From Armatimonadota bacterium (GTDB lineage: Bacteria; Armatimonadota; Fervidibacteria; Fervidibacterales; Thermosaccharophagaceae), in the NCBI GenBank assembly GCA_025062195.1, contig JANXAS010000016.1:1-64000 (forward strand): a stretch of 64,000 bases of DNA, in the 5' to 3' direction. The notes under the pieces were generated by a model. The model did no database searches, was not told where the DNA came from, and saw only the letters and a program-made list of their open reading frames with translations. The stretch's first letter is position 1, and each line of letters begins with the position of its first letter. Both the position numbers and the translations under genes were made by a program. Shown here piece by piece: positions 1 to 62,216 of this stretch.

Positions 1-2643
1 CTCCTGCCCTCCATCAACATTCAGCGCCTCGCCAGTGATGTAAGAGGACTCTTCGGAGGCTAAGAAGACAACGGCGTTGCAAACATCATCATAGGTGCAG
101 CCTCTTTTGAGCGGGACTTGCTCCTCGTATTTGCGCCTGACTTCTTCGGGTGTTATCCCCCATCGCTTTGAATATTGCTCATATAGGCTTCTCACCCACA
201 GAGGGGAGTCAAGCAAGTTACCTGGGCATACAGCGTTCACTCGCACACCATATGGTGCAAGTTCAAGCGCCAAACTTTGCGTTAGCCCGATGCCACCAAA
301 CTTGCTTGAGGCATATGCTGAGTTCCTATAGCTTCCCTTCTTTCCGCTCTTTGAGTTGATCTGGATGATAACGCCGCTCCTTTGCTCAATCATGACCTTG
401 GCAACATGCTTTGCGCATATCATGTATCCGACAAGGTTAACATCAATCACCCTCCTCCAAGCGTCAACATCAAATTCAGTTATAGCGCCGGCGATAAGTA
501 TCCCAGCATTAGCAACAAGTATATCAATGCGCCCAAATTCCTCAAGCGTCTTTTTTACCATCCACTCAACATCACTCTCGTTTGTCACATCAACTTTGAG
601 GCCGAGCGCCCTGACGCCATATCGTTTCTTAATGGCTTCGGCAACAGCAGTTGCGCCTACGGAATTGATATCGGCAACAACAACATGCGCACCCTCCTGA
701 GCGAGGCGCATAGCGATTGCTTCACCGAGACCTTGCCCCGCACCAGTTACGATGGCAACCCTGTCTTTAAGGCGCTTCATTGTGCCCTCGCAGTGACAAA
801 CAAACGGACCTCTTGCAATAAGTTCTGTATCCTCGGCAGGCTCAAGCTTGAGAAAGCGCTTTAGCAGCGCTTCTTCGGCATCCTTTGTCCAATTGCCGTC
901 CTCAGAAAGCTTTGAGGCGACATCAGGGAAGCGCTCCTTCAGTTCGGTCAGCGGTGTGAGCGGGATATCAATGTGCGGGAATATTACGACCTTGCCCGGG
1001 AAGCGCCCTTCCTCAGCAGCTTTGACAGCTTCCCAAACCGCCTTTATCCCGCCAATGGCTGCCACTGAAAAATTCGGGCGAAGTTCGCCCCTTTCCGTTT
1101 TTGAAAGAGCCAACACTAAATCAGCAATGCTTGAGCCGCTGCTCCCAACATACCTTTGACCGTGCATGTATACCCCTGACACATCAATCTTCACATTTGT
1201 GCCCTTCGGCAAGCCGGCAAACAGATTCATGAAGCCGTTCTCTCCAAGCCACCTCTGAGCATCCTCAATTAAACTTGGGACTGGTGCAAGAAGGACAATG
1301 TCGTCAAAACCATGATCACCAACTGCCTTGTAAAGCTCACTGTCAAGCCGCTCCCCCAGTTTCCTCGGGTTGAGCAAGATTAGCTCAATTCCTGCTTCCT
1401 TAGCCTTTCTTGCATATCGCTGGTTGCAATATTCTAAGCGGGATTCATCCACATCTGTTGCAACTATGATTCTTGGTGGTTCCTTTGAATCAATCGCCCG
1501 CAGAAGATGCATTTGCCCCATTGGTCCGCCAACCCCGATGAGATACAATGAGCCACCGCTCTTTAGTTCGCTTCTCCTTCTACCGGTGGTGTATCCCTCC
1601 GAAATGTCATTGCTCGTTGTGCCGACCATGAGAATGCCATCGTAATGTATTCGCCCAACATCAATTACTGCCGGCTTATCCATTGGTGCATTCGCAACGA
1701 TGTTTAGGATTCCACCCCTTGCAAGTTTCCCAAAAACTTTTGAGACGACATCAGCTGAATTGCCAAGCAAGATTATGTCATCAAATCCCTTCCCGTCAGT
1801 CTCAAATTGAACAAGCTCTTCTATATCAAGTTCCTCAATCCTTTTCGTCTCAACAAACGGTATTTCAAGCGCCCTGCAACGCTCCTTGAGCAACAGTCGG
1901 ATAATTCCATTAAGCCCTGTTGCTATCACTTTTCTTGGATGCCTTCGTCGCTCTATACCTTGGCTAATTTCATACTCGTTAAACAGTGCTCCTTCAACCC
2001 CGATGAACCAACACACCCCACCAGCTTTGATTCCGTCTCTGATTGAGATTGAGTAAGAGGCTTCAACACATGCCCACGGCTCAGCCAAGGCAGCTTCAGC
2101 GTAGCCACAATCATCTTTCACCGGGATCAGATAACAACCATCGTCGCCATAGAGCACCTCTTTTCCAATGACACAATATTGCTCGTAGCCACCCGGAAGC
2201 ATATAGCCATACGCCAATCCAACGCCCTTGTAATAAATGTCGGCTTGAATAATGTATCGCTCGCCAACTTTGAATCTGTCTTTTAACTTTTCCCCGACGG
2301 AGATCACCGTCAGCGAAACTTCATGCCCCGGTATTATCGGTTCCTTTGAGAGGTCCCGCCCATAAAGCCTCGGGTGTGAACCCCCAAGGCTGATTATCTT
2401 CACATCGCTGAAGCAAACTCCTACAGCGTCAATGCGCACAAGTAATTCGTTGTCAGAATGCTTTGGGAGCGGCACCTTTTCAGGTTCCCTGTTACGCCCG
2501 AAGTTATCCATGCCAGCACCATGCAATCTCCATGCGAGCATCTTCTCCGGGAGCCTGTGTTTGGCAGACCGATACAGCTCAATGGGATAACCAACGCTTG
2601 TTCCACCTGCGTTCAATTTGCGTTTTCTCACGCCCTCGCGCAT
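1..2643 (-). CDS. MDR-SDR fusion dehydrogenase (sorbose-1-P reductase-like plus sorbitol-6-P dehydrogenase-like), 3' end cut by window
   Basis: One uninterrupted frame of 881 codons runs off the window start. ATG at 2643 follows GGGAGTGAT. Residues about 35-620 form a medium-chain dehydrogenase with Cys77 in GVCFSDVK, the Zn-ligand motif GHE at 106-108 and a long nucleotide-binding part. In that part the Rossmann-like pattern seems to occur twice (LYLIGVGGPMGQMH is one copy). From Met622 a complete short-chain dehydrogenase follows: TGAGQGLG at 633-640, NAG, and catalytic Tyr777 and Lys781 in YASSK. The stretch PGNLLDSPLW and the ending VPLKRGC recall SrlD-type sorbitol-6-phosphate dehydrogenases, and the N-terminal half recalls SorE-type sorbose-1-phosphate reductases. 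By inference the protein interconverts a ketose phosphate, a hexitol phosphate and fructose-6-phosphate with NAD(P). Only a few C-terminal residues are probably missing. The aldolase gene ends 6 bases upstream, so the two are likely co-transcribed. Confidence 0.85.
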   Translation of the reverse strand, partial: MREGVRKRKLNAGGTSVGYPIELYRSAKHRLPEKMLAWRLHGAGMDNFGRNREPEKVPLPKHSDNELLVRIDAVGVCFSDVKIISLGGSHPRLYGRDLSKEPIIPGHEVSLTVISVGEKLKDRFKVGERYIIQADIYYKGVGLAYGYMLPGGYEQYCVIGKEVLYGDDGCYLIPVKDDCGYAEAALAEPWACVEASYSISIRDGIKAGGVCWFIGVEGALFNEYEISQGIERRRHPRKVIATGLNGIIRLLLKERCRALEIPFVETKRIEELDIEELVQFETDGKGFDDIILLGNSADVVSKVFGKLARGGILNIVANAPMDKPAVIDVGRIHYDGILMVGTTSNDISEGYTTGRRRSELKSGGSLYLIGVGGPMGQMHLLRAIDSKEPPRIIVATDVDESRLEYCNQRYARKAKEAGIELILLNPRKLGERLDSELYKAVGDHGFDDIVLLAPVPSLIEDAQRWLGENGFMNLFAGLPKGTNVKIDVSGVYMHGQRYVGSSGSSIADLVLALSKTERGELRPNFSVAAIGGIKAVWEAVKAAEEGRFPGKVVIFPHIDIPLTPLTELKERFPDVASKLSEDGNWTKDAEEALLKRFLKLEPAEDTELIARGPFVCHCEGTMKRLKDRVAIVTGAGQGLGEAIAMRLAQEGAHVVVADINSVGATAVAEAIKKRYGVRALGLKVDVTNESDVEWMVKKTLEEFGRIDILVANAGILIAGAITEFDVDAWRRVIDVNLVGYMICAKHVAKVMIEQRSGVIIQINSKSGKKGSYRNSAYASSKFGGIGLTQSLALELAPYGVRVNAVCPGNLLDSPLWVRSLYEQYSKRWGITPEEVRRKYEEQVPLKRGCTYDDVCNAVVFLASEESSYITGEALNVDGGQE

Positions 2644-2649
2644 GAGGCA

Positions 2650-3444
2650 TCACTCCCGTTTAAATATGAGTCTCTGGCGATACTTCTCGTCGGGGCGAGT
2701 GTAGATGCGCCTAATTTGCTCATCGCTCAAGAAGCGCGGTCCACCGAGCATACACGCTCCAAGCAGTATTTTGGCTATCTTGTCCCACATGACAGTTATC
2801 GTCTCCACTTCCTTCGGCGTTGAGCCAAGCGCTATGAGACCGTGATTCTCAAGAAGGATTGATTTTGGTGGCTCTCCGTGAACTTCGATGTGTTCATGAA
2901 CACCCTTATGTATCGCTTTGGCGAGTTCAGCACCCGGCTCGGCATACTCAACATAAACTGGTGCTATACCGCAGCACACAATCGCCTCGGGAAACATGTG
3001 CCCTGAAAGGACTTCTTTGCTGCGCACCGAACACAGGATGGAGTTGAGGGAGATTGGGTGGGTATGCCCGACGAAGTTCACCCCCGGCAGCTGAAGCAAC
3101 AGGGCATGAAACATTGTTTCCACTGATGGTCGGTATGGGCATGATGGGTCAACTTTGGCTTCGTTCAAGCGTTGCTCAATTTCATCGTCCGTCAGACGGT
3201 CAAACTTGAGCATCTCAAGGACGGGCTCAAAGTAAACTTCAACAAAGCCCCTGCCAGTGATATCGGAGAGCGAGAAGCCGCTCGCCTTCACAAAGAAAGT
3301 TCGTTCGTCAATCTTTGCCGATGTGTTGCCCTCGCCGAGCACAACATATTCCCTGCTTGGCTCACCGAGCGAGCGTGACATATTTACAAGTTGCTCAAGC
3401 ACGGCTCTTTTGTGCTGTGCGCGCTCCACCTTAATCTCGCCCAT
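2650..3444 (-). CDS. class II aldolase/adducin family protein
   Basis: This 264-residue protein matches zinc-dependent class II aldolases (fuculose-, rhamnulose- and ribulose-phosphate aldolases and epimerases). Visible zinc ligands are His127 and His129 in GHTHP and His201 in ENHG, with an acidic residue in PSVETMFHA (Glu109). The family cleaves or rearranges ketose 1-phosphates to dihydroxyacetone phosphate and an aldehyde. Exact substrate cannot be read from sequence. An upstream GTG would give three more residues, but that GTG is part of the GAGGTGAG ribosome site, so the ATG at 3444 is preferred. It is followed after 6 bases by the MDR-SDR fusion gene, which suggests a shared sugar-phosphate pathway. 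Confidence 0.88.
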   Translation of the reverse strand: MGEIKVERAQHKRAVLEQLVNMSRSLGEPSREYVVLGEGNTSAKIDERTFFVKASGFSLSDITGRGFVEVYFEPVLEMLKFDRLTDDEIEQRLNEAKVDPSCPYRPSVETMFHALLLQLPGVNFVGHTHPISLNSILCSVRSKEVLSGHMFPEAIVCCGIAPVYVEYAEPGAELAKAIHKGVHEHIEVHGEPPKSILLENHGLIALGSTPKEVETITVMWDKIAKILLGACMLGGPRFLSDEQIRRIYTRPDEKYRQRLIFKRE

Positions 3445-3453
3445 TTGGCTCAC

Positions 3454-3901
3454 CTCAAGAAAGTAAAGGATTCCTCTGCCGCTTTATCCTTAATGTAGCT
3501 CAAAAGGTTTGCTCTGTGTTGATGTTGGACTTCAGGCAACAAGAACGCCTTGAACGAAGCTAAAGCATTTCCTAATGCCATTGGCGAATAGGCTTTAGCT
3601 CCAACGCTTTGAAGTTTGAAGAAGGTTATGCAGATTGAGCTGTCACTACAACTCATCATATTGCGGGTGGAGCAAGTGGCGTGCTTTCATTTGATGATGG
3701 TGTTGCGCAGTCAGTTGAATGTGACGGTGTTTGTTATGCTGCGTGCAAAAGGTTGGTTTCGTCTGAGCCAGAGGGAGGCAGTGGTTTGAGGCTGTTGCTG
3801 TCTATACCTAACGGGAGTTGTTATCAACCACAATGGCTCTATGGCTTGTGCGAATCTACAGCGGTGTCAAATCAAACACTTTGTCAATGAGGTGAGAGGG
3901 A
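3454..3901. other. intergenic region between divergent genes
   Basis: This gap separates the leftward aldolase gene from the rightward isomerase gene, so it should hold promoters for both. Short open frames here have no family resemblance or ribosome sites. No tRNA, hairpin or convincing promoter hexamer pair was seen. A GAGGTGAG ribosome site lies at its right edge for the next gene. Confidence 0.5.
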
Positions 3902-4723
3902 ATGGTGCGGTTTGCAATATGCAACGAGATGTTTCAGGGGTGGGAGATTGAGAAGGTGTTTAAGTTTGCCTCAGAAGTTGGATACAGCGGCGTTGAGATT
4001 GCGCCGTTCGCGCTCGCTGAGGATGTGCGAACTATAACGAAAGCGCAGCGAAGGCAAATTAGAGCCAGTGCAGAGGTTGCTGGGGTTGAGGTTGTGGGAT
4101 TGCACTGGCTTCTCGTCAAGCCCGAAGGGTTGCACATCCACCACCCAGATGAGAGCGTGCGTCAAAGAACAGAAGATTATCTTAGGGCGCTCATAGAATT
4201 TTGTGCCGATATAGGCGGGCGAATTATGGTCTTTGGTTCTCCAAGGCAACGCAAGTTTCTTGAAGGCGAGAGCCAAGATGAAGCGTGGGAGCGCGCCATT
4301 CGCACATTCTTAAACATTATGCCGGACGCGGAGAGAAACAAGGTGACAATATGCATTGAGCCGCTATCGCCAGAGGAGACAGATTTCATTAACACCGTCA
4401 CTGAAGCAATCAGGTTAGTTGAAGCGATATCGCATCCCAATTTCCAACTCATGGTTGATGTGAAGGCAATGCTCAGTGAGGGACGCCCGCTTGACCAAAT
4501 CATACTTGAAGCAGCTCCATACCTTAAGCATGTGCATGCAAATGATGCCAACAGGCTTGGTCCGGGGATGGGTGAAACAGATTATAAGCCCATTGTTAAC
4601 GCCCTAAGGAAGATAGGCTATGACGGTTTTGTTTCCGTTGAGGCATTTGATTTCACCCCGGGAGCCGAGACAATAGCCAGAAGCTCAATTGTATACTTGC
4701 GTGAGGTGTTCCTTGGGCAATGA
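3902..4723 (+). CDS. sugar phosphate isomerase/epimerase (xylose isomerase-like TIM barrel)
   Basis: The 273-residue protein has the AP-endonuclease-2/xylose isomerase-like barrel pattern. Metal ligands are visible: Glu153 (CIEPLSP), Asp186 (LMVDVKAM), His212 (HVHANDANR) and Glu247 (SVEAFDF). These enzymes isomerise or epimerise free or phosphorylated sugars, or act on sugar-derived intermediates, but the substrate is not predictable here. The start follows GAGGTGAGAGGGA. The stop codon overlaps the start of queE by four bases (ATGA), so the two are translationally coupled. This is odd, because queE belongs to deazaguanine synthesis. It could instead be a hydroxypyruvate isomerase-like enzyme. 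Confidence 0.85.
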   Translation: MVRFAICNEMFQGWEIEKVFKFASEVGYSGVEIAPFALAEDVRTITKAQRRQIRASAEVAGVEVVGLHWLLVKPEGLHIHHPDESVRQRTEDYLRALIEFCADIGGRIMVFGSPRQRKFLEGESQDEAWERAIRTFLNIMPDAERNKVTICIEPLSPEETDFINTVTEAIRLVEAISHPNFQLMVDVKAMLSEGRPLDQIILEAAPYLKHVHANDANRLGPGMGETDYKPIVNALRKIGYDGFVSVEAFDFTPGAETIARSSIVYLREVFLGQ

Positions 4724-5505
4724 TTCACAAGCCGAGAGCATGTAATGATGCCATTGGCGATGCGGTTGAAGCCTTTGTGAGCATACAGGGTGAGGGAATA
4801 TTCGTTGGCGTCCCAATGGCTTTTTTCAGGCTCGCAAGATGCAACAGGCGTTGCCCATACTGCGATACAGCCTATTCTTGGGAGACACCAAATTGCGTTG
4901 CTATTAAAAAACCGTTCTCGCACGAAGTTGTTCTGTCCATTCAAAATCCGGTGAGTGCAAGCCTGCTTGTGGGAGCATTCATGAAGATGCTGGGGCGGCA
5001 CGATTTAATTCATTGGGCTTGCATTACTGGTGGCGAACCATTGCTTCAGCCCGAATTCTGCAATGCAATCGCCGCGGAGCTAAAAGCGGTTGGCATGCGC
5101 ATACTCCTTGAGACACAGGGCGACTTGTATGAGCCGCTAAAAATAGTGCTCCCATTAGTTGACGCTGTCTCTGCCGACGCTAAGCTACCCTCGGTCACCG
5201 GTGAGCCGCTGAGCTGGGATGACTTAAAACGCACATTGAGTTTGTGTGTGAGTGCCGGTCGCACCGTTTATGTTAAACTTGTTGTCACGCTGAGCATAGA
5301 ACCGGGTGAGGTTGAGAGGGTTTCAAAGCTCATTGCAAGCATTAGCGACAAGATACCATTTGTGCTGCAGCCTGTAACGCCATCTGGCAGTGTCAAAGAA
5401 GTGCCAAGCGAGTGCTTGCTTTGGCAGCTTGCGTGCATAGCCGCTCAGCAATTGAGCGATGTGCGAATTATACCGCAGGTTCATCGCATGCTCAAATTGC
5501 CTTAA
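4720..5505 (+). CDS. queE: 7-carboxy-7-deazaguanine synthase, radical SAM
   Basis: QueE contracts 6-carboxytetrahydropterin to 7-carboxy-7-deazaguanine in queuosine/archaeosine precursor synthesis. The radical SAM cluster motif is Cys41-x3-Cys45-x2-Cys48 (CNRRCPYC), preceded by the QueE signature SIQGEG at 21-26 and followed by TGGEPLLQ for SAM binding. At 261 residues it is slightly longer than usual. It starts inside the stop codon of the isomerase gene, with no separate promoter. The partner genes queD and queC are not in the window. Confidence 0.9.
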   Translation: MIHKPRACNDAIGDAVEAFVSIQGEGIFVGVPMAFFRLARCNRRCPYCDTAYSWETPNCVAIKKPFSHEVVLSIQNPVSASLLVGAFMKMLGRHDLIHWACITGGEPLLQPEFCNAIAAELKAVGMRILLETQGDLYEPLKIVLPLVDAVSADAKLPSVTGEPLSWDDLKRTLSLCVSAGRTVYVKLVVTLSIEPGEVERVSKLIASISDKIPFVLQPVTPSGSVKEVPSECLLWQLACIAAQQLSDVRIIPQVHRMLKLP

Positions 5506-6002: not shown

Positions 6003-6797
6003 ATGGTTGCACTAAAATGCCCAAGGTGTGGCACTGTCACTTATGAGGGTCATTTTTCATTCCCGAAATGTCATATTTGCCATGAGGACTTGACCAAGTG
6101 CCGTTATTGCAGGCACTATCAGGGTGATGGCAAAGCTTGCGGCGCATTGGCTGGCAAGCCCATTATCTATGGTGATGATGTCCGTCAATGCGGCAGCTAT
6201 CAATCAAAGCTTAAGGTGGCTGTATCACCATCGCAATTCTCAACGAAGTCAAATGTTGCAGCGTGCATCTTAACGAGCGCAATGATGGGTATCATTGTCG
6301 CCGTCCTTAGTATGTTGCCTCACACAAACCACGACCATACCGAAACCATAGCTGTAAGATGCAGAAGGAATGTGAGGCAAAGTGATATCCTCGTCACCAC
6401 CCTCACTATACCGAGGCGTTTGCGAACATCGTCGGCTAACATAAGTTTGCTCATCCCGAAAGGAGTGCTAAACTCTTTTTCGCTCCTTAGCATATCGCCA
6501 ACACCCACCTTCCGAATGGAAAATGAACAGAGAATAGTTTACTCATACAGGGGACTTATGCCAACGATGGAGCCTTTTACAGTGCGCCTAACATTGCGCC
6601 CGCTCAAGAATGGCATTCATAGCTTGCGCTTTGAAGTGATTGAGGAAGACGAGTATGGAAACTTGGCGAGGAGGGAAGTGCTCACATGGAACATCAATGT
6701 GATGGGAGATGATAGCGGCAAGAAGACGATAAAACAACATCTGTTCATAATAGCGTTGTCTGGAAGTATGATGCCATGTAATGCGAGCATTAAATGA
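6003..6797 (+). CDS. zinc-ribbon membrane protein of unknown function
   Basis: The 264-residue protein is not a family I recognise. The first 65 residues are rich in cysteine pairs: Cys6/Cys9, Cys23/Cys26, Cys33/Cys36, then Cys46 and Cys63. This suggests two zinc ribbons or a rubredoxin-like knuckle. A single hydrophobic segment follows at about 84-107. The C-terminal 150 residues look like a beta-rich domain. The probable topology is a cytoplasmic zinc domain, a membrane anchor and an exported domain, possibly for sensing or assembly. The start has no strong ribosome site. The BON-like gene follows after 12 bases. Confidence 0.6.
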   Translation: MVALKCPRCGTVTYEGHFSFPKCHICHEDLTKCRYCRHYQGDGKACGALAGKPIIYGDDVRQCGSYQSKLKVAVSPSQFSTKSNVAACILTSAMMGIIVAVLSMLPHTNHDHTETIAVRCRRNVRQSDILVTTLTIPRRLRTSSANISLLIPKGVLNSFSLLSISPTPTFRMENEQRIVYSYRGLMPTMEPFTVRLTLRPLKNGIHSLRFEVIEEDEYGNLARREVLTWNINVMGDDSGKKTIKQHLFIIALSGSMMPCNASIK

Positions 6798-6809
6798 GGT
6801 GATGAAGCC

Positions 6810-7076
6810 ATGCGCATGCGTGAACCACATAAGGCAGGTGTTCAAGAACTCGTAATGAAGATACGCCGCGAATTCAACAAAGCCAACTTGGATATCTCAC
6901 GACTTGAAGTGATTAACTACGGTGGGACAATTAACCTTTACGGGTGGGTAGTGAGGGCGAAGGGTGACAAGTCACAAGAGAGTGTCAGAGACAGGTTCAA
7001 CAGGGTCGTTGATATTGTGCGCAGAATGCCTGGCGTCAGGGATGTGGTCAGCTATGTGCGCATAAGGGAAGTATAA
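6810..7076 (+). CDS. small BON-like domain protein
   Basis: This 88-residue protein starts after a good GAGGTGATGAAGCC site. Its pattern is helix, strand, helix, strand: residues 15-25 helical, VINYGGTINLYGWVV strand-turn-strand, a helix around DRFNRVVDIVRRM, and PGVRDVVSYVRIREV at the end. This is how BON domains read (compare GVVTLSG...A..V.GV..V.N.). BON proteins bind phospholipid or act as periplasmic scaffolds, but this one has no signal peptide. It is probably co-transcribed with the zinc-ribbon gene before it. Confidence 0.6.
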   Translation: MRMREPHKAGVQELVMKIRREFNKANLDISRLEVINYGGTINLYGWVVRAKGDKSQESVRDRFNRVVDIVRRMPGVRDVVSYVRIREV

Positions 7077-7255
7077 AGCTTTGTCACGCTGGCTGATGGA
7101 TTCATTCCACCACCCTCTTAGCTGCCCAATAGGGAAGCCACTCTGGCTGCCTCAACCGAAGTGTGTTTAATGGTGTCCAAAGATTATGGCATTTAAGTTT
7201 GGTTGTCCCCGAAGAGATAGGTGCAGGCATTCACTTAAGGAGCGAGAATTGCGCA

Positions 7256-7960
7256 ATGGGCAATGTGGTTACCGTTGATGAAGAATTGATTGCAGATAGG
7301 ACGAACACCGTCAAAAGCCGAGATAGCTGCTTTCGGTCAAGTTTTCAAAATTTGAATTCATTGGCGTATGAGTGCATCAAGCGCCTAATTGATGTTGTTG
7401 GCTCACTGTTGCTGCTGTTTATTAGCATGCCGTTTATGATTCTTATCGGTATCCTCATAATGCTTGACTCACCAGGACCGATTCTCTTTCGGCAACCTCG
7501 CTACGGTAAGGGTGGCAAAGTGTTTATACTTTACAAGTTTCGGACAATGCATGTTGGCGCCGAGAAGTTAAGAGCATCGCTCTGGGCTATGAGCGATATG
7601 AGGGGTGGGTTTAAGCTCCGCAATGACCCGAGGGTAACTCTGCTCGGCAAATTCCTGCGGACATATAGCTTGGATGAGCTGCCGCAACTCTTCAATGTCT
7701 TTAAGGGTGAGATGAGCTTAGTTGGACCTCGTCCTCATCCTCTTGATGAATTTGACCCATCAAACCCAGACCACAGGGAGATACTCAGCGTAAAGCCCGG
7801 CTTGACATGCCTTTGGCAGGTGAGCGGGCGCAACCTCCTGAGTTTTGAAGATTGGGTGAAACTTGACCTGCAATATGTGCGCAATCGCTCTCTGTTGCTT
7901 GACCTCGCTATACTTGGAAAGACTATACCAACTGTCATAACCGCCTATGGCGCATTCTAA
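7256..7960 (+). CDS. bacterial sugar transferase (polyprenyl-phosphate sugar-1-phosphate transferase)
   Basis: This is a WcaJ/PglC-type monotopic phosphoglycosyl transferase, which starts exopolysaccharide or glycan synthesis by moving a sugar-1-phosphate onto undecaprenyl phosphate at the membrane. Evidence is the hydrophobic re-entrant segment after KRLIDVVGS, YKFRTM, the block SLDELPQLFNVFKGEMSLVG, PRPHP, and KPGLTCLWQVSGRN. The frame is open from a GTG at 7163, but no ribosome site precedes it. ATG 7256 has an AAGGAG upstream, though at a long 13-base spacing, so the start is uncertain. No long N-terminal multi-pass domain is present, so this is the short form. Confidence 0.88.
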   Translation: MGNVVTVDEELIADRTNTVKSRDSCFRSSFQNLNSLAYECIKRLIDVVGSLLLLFISMPFMILIGILIMLDSPGPILFRQPRYGKGGKVFILYKFRTMHVGAEKLRASLWAMSDMRGGFKLRNDPRVTLLGKFLRTYSLDELPQLFNVFKGEMSLVGPRPHPLDEFDPSNPDHREILSVKPGLTCLWQVSGRNLLSFEDWVKLDLQYVRNRSLLLDLAILGKTIPTVITAYGAF

Positions 7961-35017: not shown

Positions 35018-35348
35018 CTCTTTAACACAAAGTTTGTTGGTTCGTGGTAAGGCACGAAGCAAAATGGAGCGGCGTCAAAATGAGCTTGGGGCAGGAATTA
35101 AAATGACATCATACACTACACTTAGCACTGGTTTTACGATGCTTCGCTTCGTGGCTAACTACGAACTGGATAGATTTTTGACGCCACTTCGCCAATGCTT
35201 TGTGGCTAACTACGAACTGGATAGGTTTTTGACGCCACTTTGCTAACGCTTTGTGGCTAACTACGAACTGAATAGGTTTTTGACGCCACTTCGCTAATGC
35301 TTTGTGGCTAACTACGAACTTAAACAACAAAGTTCGTAGTATAGAGAG
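35018..35348. repeat. inverted-repeat element 1, MITE-like, containing a 51-bp tandem array
   Basis: The left end CTCTTTAACACAAAGTTTG, then TTGGTT, matches the outer sequence of the element at 61820. The right end (AACAACAAAGTTCGTAGTAT, then AGAGAG) is a degraded copy. It is non-coding and lies between DUF1080 and the next gene. Frames of 70-92 residues on both strands read through it only because the array unit is a multiple of three. Confidence 0.6.
35151..35320. repeat. 51-bp tandem repeat, about 3.3 copies
   Basis: Units start at 35151, 35202, 35253 and 35304 (the last is partial), each beginning GTGGCTAACTACGAACT. Spacing is exactly 51 bases each time. The copies differ at a few positions (for example CGCCAATGC, TGCTAACGC and CGCTAATGC). 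The core GTGGCTAACTACGAACT is the inner part of the dispersed element family. Confidence 0.85.
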
Positions 35349-36764: not shown

Positions 36765-39700
36765 ATGCGGAAAATAGCCCTGTTCATTATTACTGCAATA
36801 ACAAGCTTGGCTCAAGGCACACCCTTTCAGTTAGTATTAGAAGCCGAAGATTTTGACGGTTTGATTTACTTGCCTTTCCACGCTGTTATTCATCCTTCCT
36901 CACCTGTCTTTGAGTTTTTCACTGATGGCTGGTATGTTCGCGAAGCCAACTGTCGTGGCTACGGGACAGTTTGGGGCAACGGAAAAGTTGCCGCTATTCA
37001 CTCAACATCAAGGGAGCGAACAATGCAAAAGCGCCTTGAGCTTCCTTTACCAACCGGTCGCTACAAAATCACCATCAGAGTTGTTGGGACTACAATGGCT
37101 GAAAAACTTGAGCGTGACAATATCTTGCGGGTTCAAATCGGAGATGCTGAAGTTGACTTTCGTTGGCGAAATGTTGGGCGAAGTTTCCGATGGCTGCCGA
37201 TGAAAGAGTTCACGCTTAAGCGCCCCGCTGACACGGTTAAGGTAACAGCAGCTCAATTTGGCGGTGTGGGTGTTGTCCACCTAAACGAAGCACAGGTGCC
37301 GAGCATTTGGCTTGACACAATTTACTTGACTGACGACCCAACAGAAACAGAACCGCCTTCACCAGAACGGGAAAGGATGGTCAAGTTCGGGGTAGACAAA
37401 TTGCCATTGCCAGAGAAGCGAAAACCACTTTGGCATGAAATTTGGGATTTGCCTTTCCCGTTCAACACTCAGCATGTTCGGTTGCAAAGTTTTGACGGTC
37501 GCAAAAACTTGTTCCCCAACGGAAGTTTTGAGTTGGGCATGCCAAGTGGTTGGGCAGCGACTAATGTGGACTACACTTTTTGCTACATTTTCACGGACGC
37601 CGATTTGGACGAGCAAAAGCCAGTTCATGGGCAGTTTTGCTTGAAAGTTCCCGAGAAAGCTAAGCCATTTTCAAGACCATTCTTGCTTGAAAAAGGTGGG
37701 AAGATATCTTTTTCGCTCTTTTTGCGCAGCGAAAAGATGCAAATAGTGCGTGTCAGTTTGCGCTCAGTCCCAGAATACAAAACGCTTGCAATGATGGATT
37801 GCCAAGTGAACGAAAAATGGCAGCGATTTTCCGTCAGTGGAGATGTGCCATCGGGTTTCGTTGATGTGCGAATAGAAAACAACGAGACGGTTTGGGTTGA
37901 TGGCATCCAGTTGGAGTATGGCTCCGTTTCTCCTTTTGCAACTCGTGGGGAAATTGAAGCGGGGTTTTCAACAGGAAAGTTCGGCAATTTGCTCTTTTGC
38001 GATGTTGGACAAGAGTTGAAGGAAACTGGGAAACAAAACCTGATTTTGTGGTTGCACAATGATGGCGAAAGGGAAAGGCAAGTCTCAGTGCGCTATCGGA
38101 TTGTCAACATTTGGGAGCAGGTGATCGCTGAAGGTAAAACTAAGCCAATAAATGTTAAACCAAAGACAACAATTCGTTTGCCGTTTCCGTTGGTGGTCAC
38201 CAGCGTATGGGGCAAATTTTCAGATGGCAAGGCTCTTGCCAAGCCGAAAAGTTTCGTCATACCGAAAGGTTTGCCTTCCGAAAGGAATACAAGCCCACTT
38301 CATTCGCCCATAGAAATTGGCTTTGGAATTTTCAGTCTTCAATGGGCAGTTGATGGGCGGATGATGCCTGAAGGGGAGTTGGTGTTTGTCGTTTTGCCGC
38401 CCATTGCGCTTAGCCAGTTCTTAGCAAGACACGAAGTGAAGCGAAGTATTGTCAGTAATGCTAAGGGAAATGCCACTTCGCTATCGCCTTGTGGCTCATT
38501 ACAAACTCAATTAGTTCGTCACGAATTGGCGGCAAATATGGATATCCTTGAGCATGCTTATCGTCTTTTCTCGCAGATGGGCTTTCGTTGGCAACTTTAC
38601 TGTAAGTTCTACCCAACATTTCCTGACAGAGTTAACCCCAAAGAAAGTGAATGGAAATGGTTTGATGAGCAGGTTGAGTTAGCTCAAAAGTTTGGGCTTA
38701 AAACATTGCCTTGTCTTTGGGCATCACAACCGCGCCCATTTTTAGCTGACTGGACGAAAGTTCCGGGCGAGACTATGGGCGTAACGCGCAACGCACAAAG
38801 ATACTTCGCTAAAGACCGCCCAGTTTACCCCGACATTTCTAAGTGGCTTGATTATGTGACAACCCTTGTGCATCACTATCGCAATTGGCTTCACTTCTGG
38901 TGCGTTGAGGACGAGACGGAGCTTTACTTTACGCCCTCCGATTTTGCCCCCATCTTCAGTGCAGCTTACAAAGCCATTAAAAGTGTGGACGCAAATTTGC
39001 AGGTTGGCACGAGTATGTGCCCACAGTATCATGAAGAATTGTTAGAATTGCTCAATGGTCAGGTTGATTTCATCGGAGCATCCTCTTGGGGTGCTTCCTA
39101 CTGGGAAGCGCGCAAAATCCGTTGGCTGCAGGAACGATGGGGCAAACCTTGGTTTTGCATTGGTGTTGGTTTGGATGGACAGCCAAGTTTCTATCACACC
39201 TTTCCAAACTCTCGTCCATCTTTGCGTGATGCAGCAATGGCAGCCCAGGAGTTGGTCAAGTTGTTCGTAGTGCAAGACGCAAAAATCATCGGGCACTACA
39301 CCGGTCGCATCCGAAACAACGGGACACATATAACAAGCGATTTTCCGCTCATTGACTACGATGGGACACCTTTGCCTTTTGGCGCAGTTTATGCGAGCAT
39401 CGGGCGATTATTGGCAAATGCCGTCCCAGCGGGCGAAATCCGGCTTGGTGAAGTGGCTGCAGGAAATAGTGGTGTCATTGCTTTTCTATTTGAGCAAGGT
39501 GGGCGAACCCATGCTGTCACTTGGTCAAATTCTCCATCGGGTCTTTATGGGCATAATGTCACTACACCGCAAACTGCACAGTCGCTTGTGCGCACATTAA
39601 CTTTACGCAGCCTACCAAAAGATTCAGTTCGCTTCACCGATTGCTTCGGAAACGAATGGCAATTCATTGAGCGCAATGGTAAAATCGTCAATGTCCAATT

Positions 39701-41164: not shown

Positions 41165-41573
41165 GAGCCGAAAACTTTGTTTGTTAGGTTCGTAGTTAGC
41201 CACGAAGCTGGGAGGGCGAGGCTCTGCCGAGCCAAAAACTTTGTTGTTTAAGTTTGTAGTTAGCCACGAGCGTTAGCGAAGCGGTGTCAAAAATGTGGTT
41301 AAGTTTGTAGTTAGCCACGAAGCTATAGCGAAGTGGCGTCAAAAATTGTCCCATGTTCCGTGTTTCATTTTTGACGGCACTATGCTTCGCTTCGTGCCTT
41401 ACTACGAACTACCTTGACGGTAATGCTCGTGTTAACCACAAAGCGAAGTGGCGTTAGGTTGGTGCAATGTGCGAGTTATCATTTTACTTGCAATTTGCAC
41501 TCACATTGATGGCACTTCGCCTTGCTTTGTGGCTTACTAAGAACCAAAAACCAACAAACTTTTGAATAAAGAG
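41165..41573. repeat. inverted-repeat element 2, compound MITE-like
   Basis: The right end AACCAACAAACTTTTGAATA, then AAGAG at 41549-41573, matches the right end of the element at 61820 in 23 of 25 positions. Inside, GTAGTTAGCCACGA occurs three times (near 41193, 41259 and 41311), plus the reverse type TGCCTTACTACGAAC near 41396-41410. The element is nested or rearranged. The next gene's ribosome site AGAGAGGTGA begins at its outer edge. Confidence 0.6.
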
Positions 41574-61757: not shown

Positions 61758-62216
61758 TGAATTTAGAGGCGCTGTTAAGCTCTCCGCATCGCCGGTTGTT
61801 GTAATTGTTTTTTGGCACGCTCTTTACCATAAACTTTGTTGGTTAGGTTCGTAGTTAGCCACGAAGGGTCAGCGGAGTGGTGTTAAATCGGTGCGCGGTG
61901 CGATGTGCGGGGGGCAGTGTTGTTATCTTTCTTCGCAGTCTTACTTTGCACCTCGCACTCCGCACCCAATTACGGCACTCCGCTTCGCTCGGTGCCTTAC
62001 TACGAACCAACAAAATTTTGAGTAAAGAGTGTTTGGGCAGAACTCCACCTGCTGCTATCTTTGTATTGGTTGCAAAGTCCAAGCAACAGGCACAATTTGC
62101 CACCATGGCAGTTGCCCGATAAAATGGTTTGCAACTTGGTTGCCGACCACTTTGGTTTTTGCGCGCTGCTATAATGTCGTTGGGTTGTCCTTCTTAACCT
62201 GTGAGGTGTTCCTGCT
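61758..62216. other. intergenic region with MITE-like element
   Basis: It lies between the NuoE gene and the KDG kinase gene. Most of it is the element listed separately (61820-62029). A GAGGTG ribosome site precedes 62217. Confidence 0.5.
61820..62029. repeat. inverted-repeat element 3, MITE-like, with terminal inverted repeats
   Basis: Outer ends of 25 bases are inverted: CTCTTTACCATAAACTTTG, then TTGGTT on the left, and AACCAACAAAATTTTGAGTA, then AAGAG on the right. Inner parts GTTCGTAGTTAGCCACGAAG and GGTGCCTTACTACGAAC are also inverted. The total length is 210 bases and no transposase is inside. The middle is GC-rich, with GCGCGGTGCGATGTGCG. This is the best-preserved copy. Confidence 0.75.

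Follow-up and report, generated by a model that had tools for sequence, protein, structure and literature searches.

In an Armatimonadota bacterium, a palindromic repeat of the intergenic DNA forms an in-frame segment of the gene for P0001, a large protein predicted to be secreted, and comparison with orthologues supports the interpretation that it was inserted there. The element (positions 38416-38507) has degenerated but retains its full length; it consists of two GTAG-tagged hairpins placed head to head, a REP/REPIN-like layout. In-frame insertions of repeats recur in at least two further genes, P0002 and P0003. Positions in and around P0001 (Table 1) refer to the window, meaning the whole stretch of 64,000 nucleotides that was analysed; the contig carrying P0001 measures 64.7 kb, with the element deep inside it, and the genome is a draft assembly of 170 contigs that is about 97% complete.

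Table 1. Host genes, in-frame repeats and neighbouring intergenic repeats. Positions are those of the window unless a contig is named.
Feature	Position	Strand	Remarks
Host ORF P0001	36756-40718	+	1320 codons from GTG; ATG at 36765 gives 1317 aa
Second P0001-specific gain	38199-38324	+	about 39 residues (within 482-523), none in either orthologue
Repeat of a second intergenic family in P0001	38211-38286	+	core 38226-38253, GGCAAGGCTCTTGCCAAGCCGAAAA; consensus GAGGGCGAGGCTACTGCCGAGCCAAAA
Family-1 element (two GTAG hairpins, REPIN-like), A to B	38416-38507	+	in frame in P0001
Left arm, A-type unit (GTTCTTAGCAAGACACGAAG...)	38417-38454	+	79% identity to A consensus
Right arm, B-type unit	38470-38506	-	84% identity to B consensus
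Intergenic family-1 cluster, upstream	35040-35319		includes tandem array of 51-nt period
Further family-1 units near the 3' side of P0001	41188-41290 and 41427-41544
Highest-scoring intergenic family-1 element in the window, shortly after the end of the P0001 ORF	41303-41409	-	128 bits
Intergenic family-1 element with long spacer	61847-62007	-
P0002, DUF6259 protein, 1274 aa	C79 (L089) 1096-4920	-	two in-frame repeat inserts; 64-kb contig
P0003, Sortilin/BNR	C162 (L191) 6260-7819	-	three strong family-1 units in frame, near-consensus

The reading frame of P0001 runs without a stop through all of its codons, those of the element included, as the initial annotation had held. Its N-terminus resembles a signal peptide when judged by eye, and the product is predicted to be a large secreted protein; a Pfam search with P0001 found no family and a search of solved structures found no match.

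The repeat to which the element belongs (family 1) is composed of units in which GTTCGTAG(T)(T/A)A precedes an imperfect hairpin, GCCAC-GAA-GC-GATA-GC-GAA-GTGGC in the B type, and GTC(A) comes after it. The consensus B unit (GTTCGTAGTTA, this hairpin, GTCA) and the A-type unit both fold with 5-bp stems and leave GTAG unpaired. A and B units stand head to head, GTAG outermost, around a spacer of approximately 7-nt repeats (GGGACAn) that often measures 22-45 nt and is longer in some pairs. In intergenic elements the number of these 7-nt repeats varies, for example at L024:89-209 and L014:418-533, so that the spacer resembles a small internal tandem repeat; B-type units also make up the tandem array at 35145-35320, with a period of 51 nt. 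Genome-wide, the element has at least 150 strong matches; 150 was the scoring limit of the search, and every match scored has an E value of 4e-7 or better. Related units are present in G003 and G004 of the same order and in G217-G219 of the same phylum; the repeat arms are 81-92% identical in these other families, which suggests recent spread or shared binning errors.

Models built without the copy in the window recover the element in P0001. A 39-nt unit HMM, trained exclusively on copies from beyond the window, matches 38417-38447 on the forward strand (22.1 bits, E 1e-5) and 38470-38506 on the reverse strand (25.8 bits, E 7e-7), against a top score of 4.7 bits away from repeat loci in the window, and a covariance model for the entire element (107 nt), built with this copy left out, aligns end to end over 38417-38506 (49.2 bits, E 1.1e-10). 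These searches confirm the coordinates given in the initial annotation, and its statement that the arms match the intergenic repeat. Its description of the arms as inverted copies holds in so far as they are homologous inverted units, but they are only 71% alike and no longer form a good palindrome, with a folding z-score of -0.86, where the consensus element reaches -8.7. The copy measures 92 nt, compared to 107 nt for the modelled element, and is degenerate at the GTAG tag (TTAG and GTAA). It ranks third from the bottom by score among the 57 full elements of a 1.5-Mb sample, and is thus old or fast-drifted. An Rfam search of the window returned no match.

Family-1 copies inside genes are strongly depleted. 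In a sample representing about 51% of the genome (1.76 Mb, with 1,040 predicted genes that are 150 aa or longer), 339 of the 351 units (97%) are intergenic although about 79% of the sample is coding; four units overlap gene ends and eight lie inside genes, namely two in P0001, three in the gene on contig C162 (P0003) and three near predicted starts. The last three, just inside the predicted starts on C130, C101 and C97, were treated as probable start mis-calls. At least one open frame exists in 35 of 56 intact elements, and only 14% of all frames are open, so a gene hit at random would in most cases be disrupted. The right arm of the P0001 copy carries TCA in place of the consensus stop TAA in the frame used (judged by eye), which keeps that frame open.

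A RAYT as the mover of family 1 was rejected because the Y1 (RAYT-type) transposase family, PF01797, has no match in this genome, about 97% complete; G001 of the same order has a single match. We identified no parent transposon for the element. Beside the repeat cluster at 41181-41544, the segment 40765-41060 holds a remnant similar to the IS1 InsA zinc ribbon (PF03811, 20 bits, below the cut-off).

The closest orthologue of P0001 in the phylum is a full-length protein of G251 (L053, the same protein as L110, whose record is titled Armatimonadota bacterium CSMAG_1302), to which it is about 37% identical on either side of its inserts; a second and more distant one (L111, 22-25% identical) comes from a TA06 bin. 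Between the same conserved blocks (...V.P and RHE/HD) P0001 has 39 residues, where both orthologues have exactly 7. The net gain of 32 residues (554-585; 96 nt) falls together with the 92-nt element, which together with up to 4 extra nucleotides accounts for it, the boundaries being good to a few residues only because the orthologues are distant. The site is the junction of two conserved blocks (...VFVVLP and RHELAAN...). The initial annotation was therefore close with about 31 added residues, and the alignment of orthologues that it proposed finds that proteins without the element (L053/L110 and L111) are also without the residues. Its idea of a mobile element turned into coding sequence gains support from an intact and conserved frame that holds the element, and from two further genes with the same kind of event, one of them with an empty site at the DNA level.

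Orthologue gaps were judged in the part of the P0001 alignment around the element, where a second P0001-specific gain is the only other large one. It contains a repeat of a second intergenic family, which a held-out HMM detects in the window with 24.8 bits (E 1.7e-6). When the whole gene was cut into 120-nt tiles and compared with the intergenic DNA of the genome, an unbiased scan that uses no prior model, matches were obtained only at 38416-38507 and at the second repeat; these two places are the two segments that the orthologues lack.

The empty site belongs to P0003, whose three family-1 units score 49, 37 and 36 bits. Its relative in G004 (L193) is 92% identical in DNA; protein identity is 97% up to the site and 89% beyond it. 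The net gain of P0003 over G004 is 165 nt, exactly the length of the element from its first GTT to its last AAC. At this site 11 of 11 orthologues have 3 residues compared to 58 in P0003, which makes the insertion the derived state. The single empty site in G004 gives no clear target-site duplication, and its flanks differ at several bases; it reads GTTAAC, the bases of the ends of the element, a match that may be coincidence. Contig C162 is only 7.9 kb long and highly identical to the genome of another family, which leaves room for horizontal transfer or mis-binning.

P0002 carries a family-1 copy (L089 3495-3576, 30.1 bits, E 3.9e-6) and a member of a third repeat family, of which at least 26 other copies exist. 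Its inserts, of 27 and about 65 residues, are both missing from 18 informative orthologues; L163 is only partial. As in P0001, a consensus stop has been replaced in the frame used (TAG to CCG, by eye). The closest orthologue, in G001, is 84% identical over the conserved C-terminal block, and against it the gene has a dN of 0.10-0.21 with saturated dS in the two main conserved blocks, so the family is under purifying selection. AlphaFold2 modelled a 741-residue fragment of P0002 from 17 sequences with a mean pLDDT of 77.6; values below 50 are found at 432-458 and 528-590, which are the inserts, at the chain ends and at 667-676. Both inserts are predicted to be low-confidence loops, their low pLDDT being partly due to their absence from the other aligned sequences. 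The same program, run on a P0001 fragment with three sequences, gave an uninformative pLDDT of 39.6.

In a tile scan of 445 genes, only three had tiles matching at least four intergenic regions. Genes with many intergenic tile matches were also considered as repeat carriers, and proved to be pilin-like (FTLIELLVV) paralogues. These paralogues (FTLIELLVVIAIIAILAAILFPVF...), with a conserved C-terminal DGH motif, form a large family here, for example at C115:54420-55073, C99:3430-4158 and C88:495-1220. Altogether, three repeat families are found in three unrelated host genes, with insert-free orthologues for each. The family-1 element runs A to B in P0001 and B to A in P0002 and P0003, and hence no common peptide has been spread among them. 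There is an apparent, though tentative, bias toward large exported proteins among the hosts.

We consider it very probable that 38416-38507 is an old non-autonomous palindromic repeat, inserted in frame, whose 32 added residues form a near-harmless loop, and tolerated loop passengers are the best reading of the inserts as a group. The comparisons establish what the element is, that it is an insertion relative to the orthologues, that its frame is open and that such events recur in two other genes of the genome. The repeat entered P0001 at the junction of two conserved blocks, where a net gain of 96 nt keeps the frame; the gene would still be read through, and the extra residues would most likely form a loop on the protein surface and cause little damage. 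We infer that the protein is made with this loop and that the loop is near-neutral; its placement is suggested by analogy with the P0002 model. The copies presumably spread by transposition, with an enzyme acting in trans, as the most economical mechanism, and those in genes seem to persist only where the insertion preserves the frame and falls in a loop that tolerates it.

The added residues might instead have gained a function, for example as a substrate-binding or processing loop, and been kept by positive selection. All three hosts resemble large proteins of the cell exterior, and two of the three carry a pair of inserts; the copy in P0001 has diverged to about 80% of the consensus and lost its palindrome while its frame stayed open. 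However, the P0001 peptide is unrelated to those of P0002 and P0003, which are read in another orientation and frame, codon usage in both P0001 and P0002 is less coding-like within the inserts than outside them, the P0002 inserts are predicted as low-confidence loops, and the inserts are common to no second species; we therefore regard recruitment as improbable. Along the same lines, it is a tentative and rather unlikely proposition that in this lineage palindromic repeats time and again supply new surface loops to large secreted proteins of the carbohydrate-active type, with some loops recruited and several unrelated repeat families contributing.

That P0001 is a decaying pseudogene whose frame is open by accident would agree with two insertions in one gene and with a copy among the most diverged of the full-length ones, but is very unlikely in view of 1320 stop-free codons, the identity to a full-length orthologue that flanks the inserts, coding-like codon usage outside them and a net gain that is a multiple of three at every alignable site. 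An assembly or binning artefact, in which the repeat wrongly joined two contigs inside an ORF, is brought to mind by element copies that sit at contig ends and by the short C162, where the identity of P0003 to the genome of another family falls from 97% to 89%; it is extremely unlikely for P0001, whose copy is degenerate, unique and far from the contig ends and has on its two sides, in one frame, the halves of a single orthologous protein, and P0002 also lies on a long contig. Although multidomain proteins of this type do vary in linker length, chance resemblance of an ordinary linker to the intergenic repeat has a practically negligible probability, ruled out as it is by the held-out covariance model over the whole element and the gene-wide tiles, by the rarity of such genes (3 of the 445 scanned) and by the agreement between matches and orthologue gaps in each of the three genes.

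The preferred reading, that of tolerated in-frame passengers, has precedents. In the accounts of Ogata et al. (2000, 2002) given in PMC10969869 and PMC3733652, the Rickettsia palindromic elements (RPEs) are short palindromes of about 150 bp that occur in frame within genes unrelated to one another; almost half of the elements, belonging to three families, are located in ORFs. The present repeats are likewise short dispersed palindromes, in frame in unrelated genes, where they add a few tens of residues, and as with protein-coding RPEs, the inserts of P0001, P0002 and P0003 are missing from orthologues. In contrast to RPEs, they belong to another phylum, appear to differ in sequence, are intergenic for about 97% of family-1 units, and occur as three inserts in two orientations and frames with no common peptide; the likeness is one of the way of working. 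GTAG-tagged REPs are also mostly intergenic, some being intragenic and coding for 20-30 residues, sometimes two per gene, with DNA-repair genes stressed as hosts (Di Nocera et al. 2013, PMC3733652). They are recognised by an unpaired GTAG, a stem of 5-13 bp and head-to-head dimers 20-100 bp apart, and a RAYT gene often, not always, accompanies the published families (PMC3733652). Family 1 shares with them the GTAG tag beside an imperfect hairpin and a short 3' tail, and with their REPIN/BIME-like dimers the head-to-head pairing with GTAG outside, the high copy number and the mostly intergenic location. It differs from RAYT-linked families in that no Y1/RAYT gene was found in its own genome, so the name REP denotes layout here, and the hosts are predicted exported proteins rather than DNA-repair proteins. 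Bacterial MITEs, too, can make in-frame fusions (reviewed in PMC10969869); family 1 resembles them in being small, non-autonomous and present in many copies with inverted-repeat termini, but no target-site duplication was recognisable at the G004 empty site and no parent transposon was found.

Armatimonadota are not mentioned in the main text of Di Nocera et al. (2013, PMC3733652), and none of the papers searched links repetitive extragenic palindromes to Armatimonadetes; palindromes lying in frame within genes are known in kind, and in Armatimonadota they are apparently new. Mobile palindromes in frame have been described chiefly in Rickettsia and certain REP-rich bacteria, and represent a rarely documented route to new protein segments. 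The empty site in a near-identical relative, together with insert-free orthologues, provides unusually good comparative evidence, and the system allows a direct approach to the question of whether inserts of this kind are simply passengers or supply the material from which new parts of proteins can arise.
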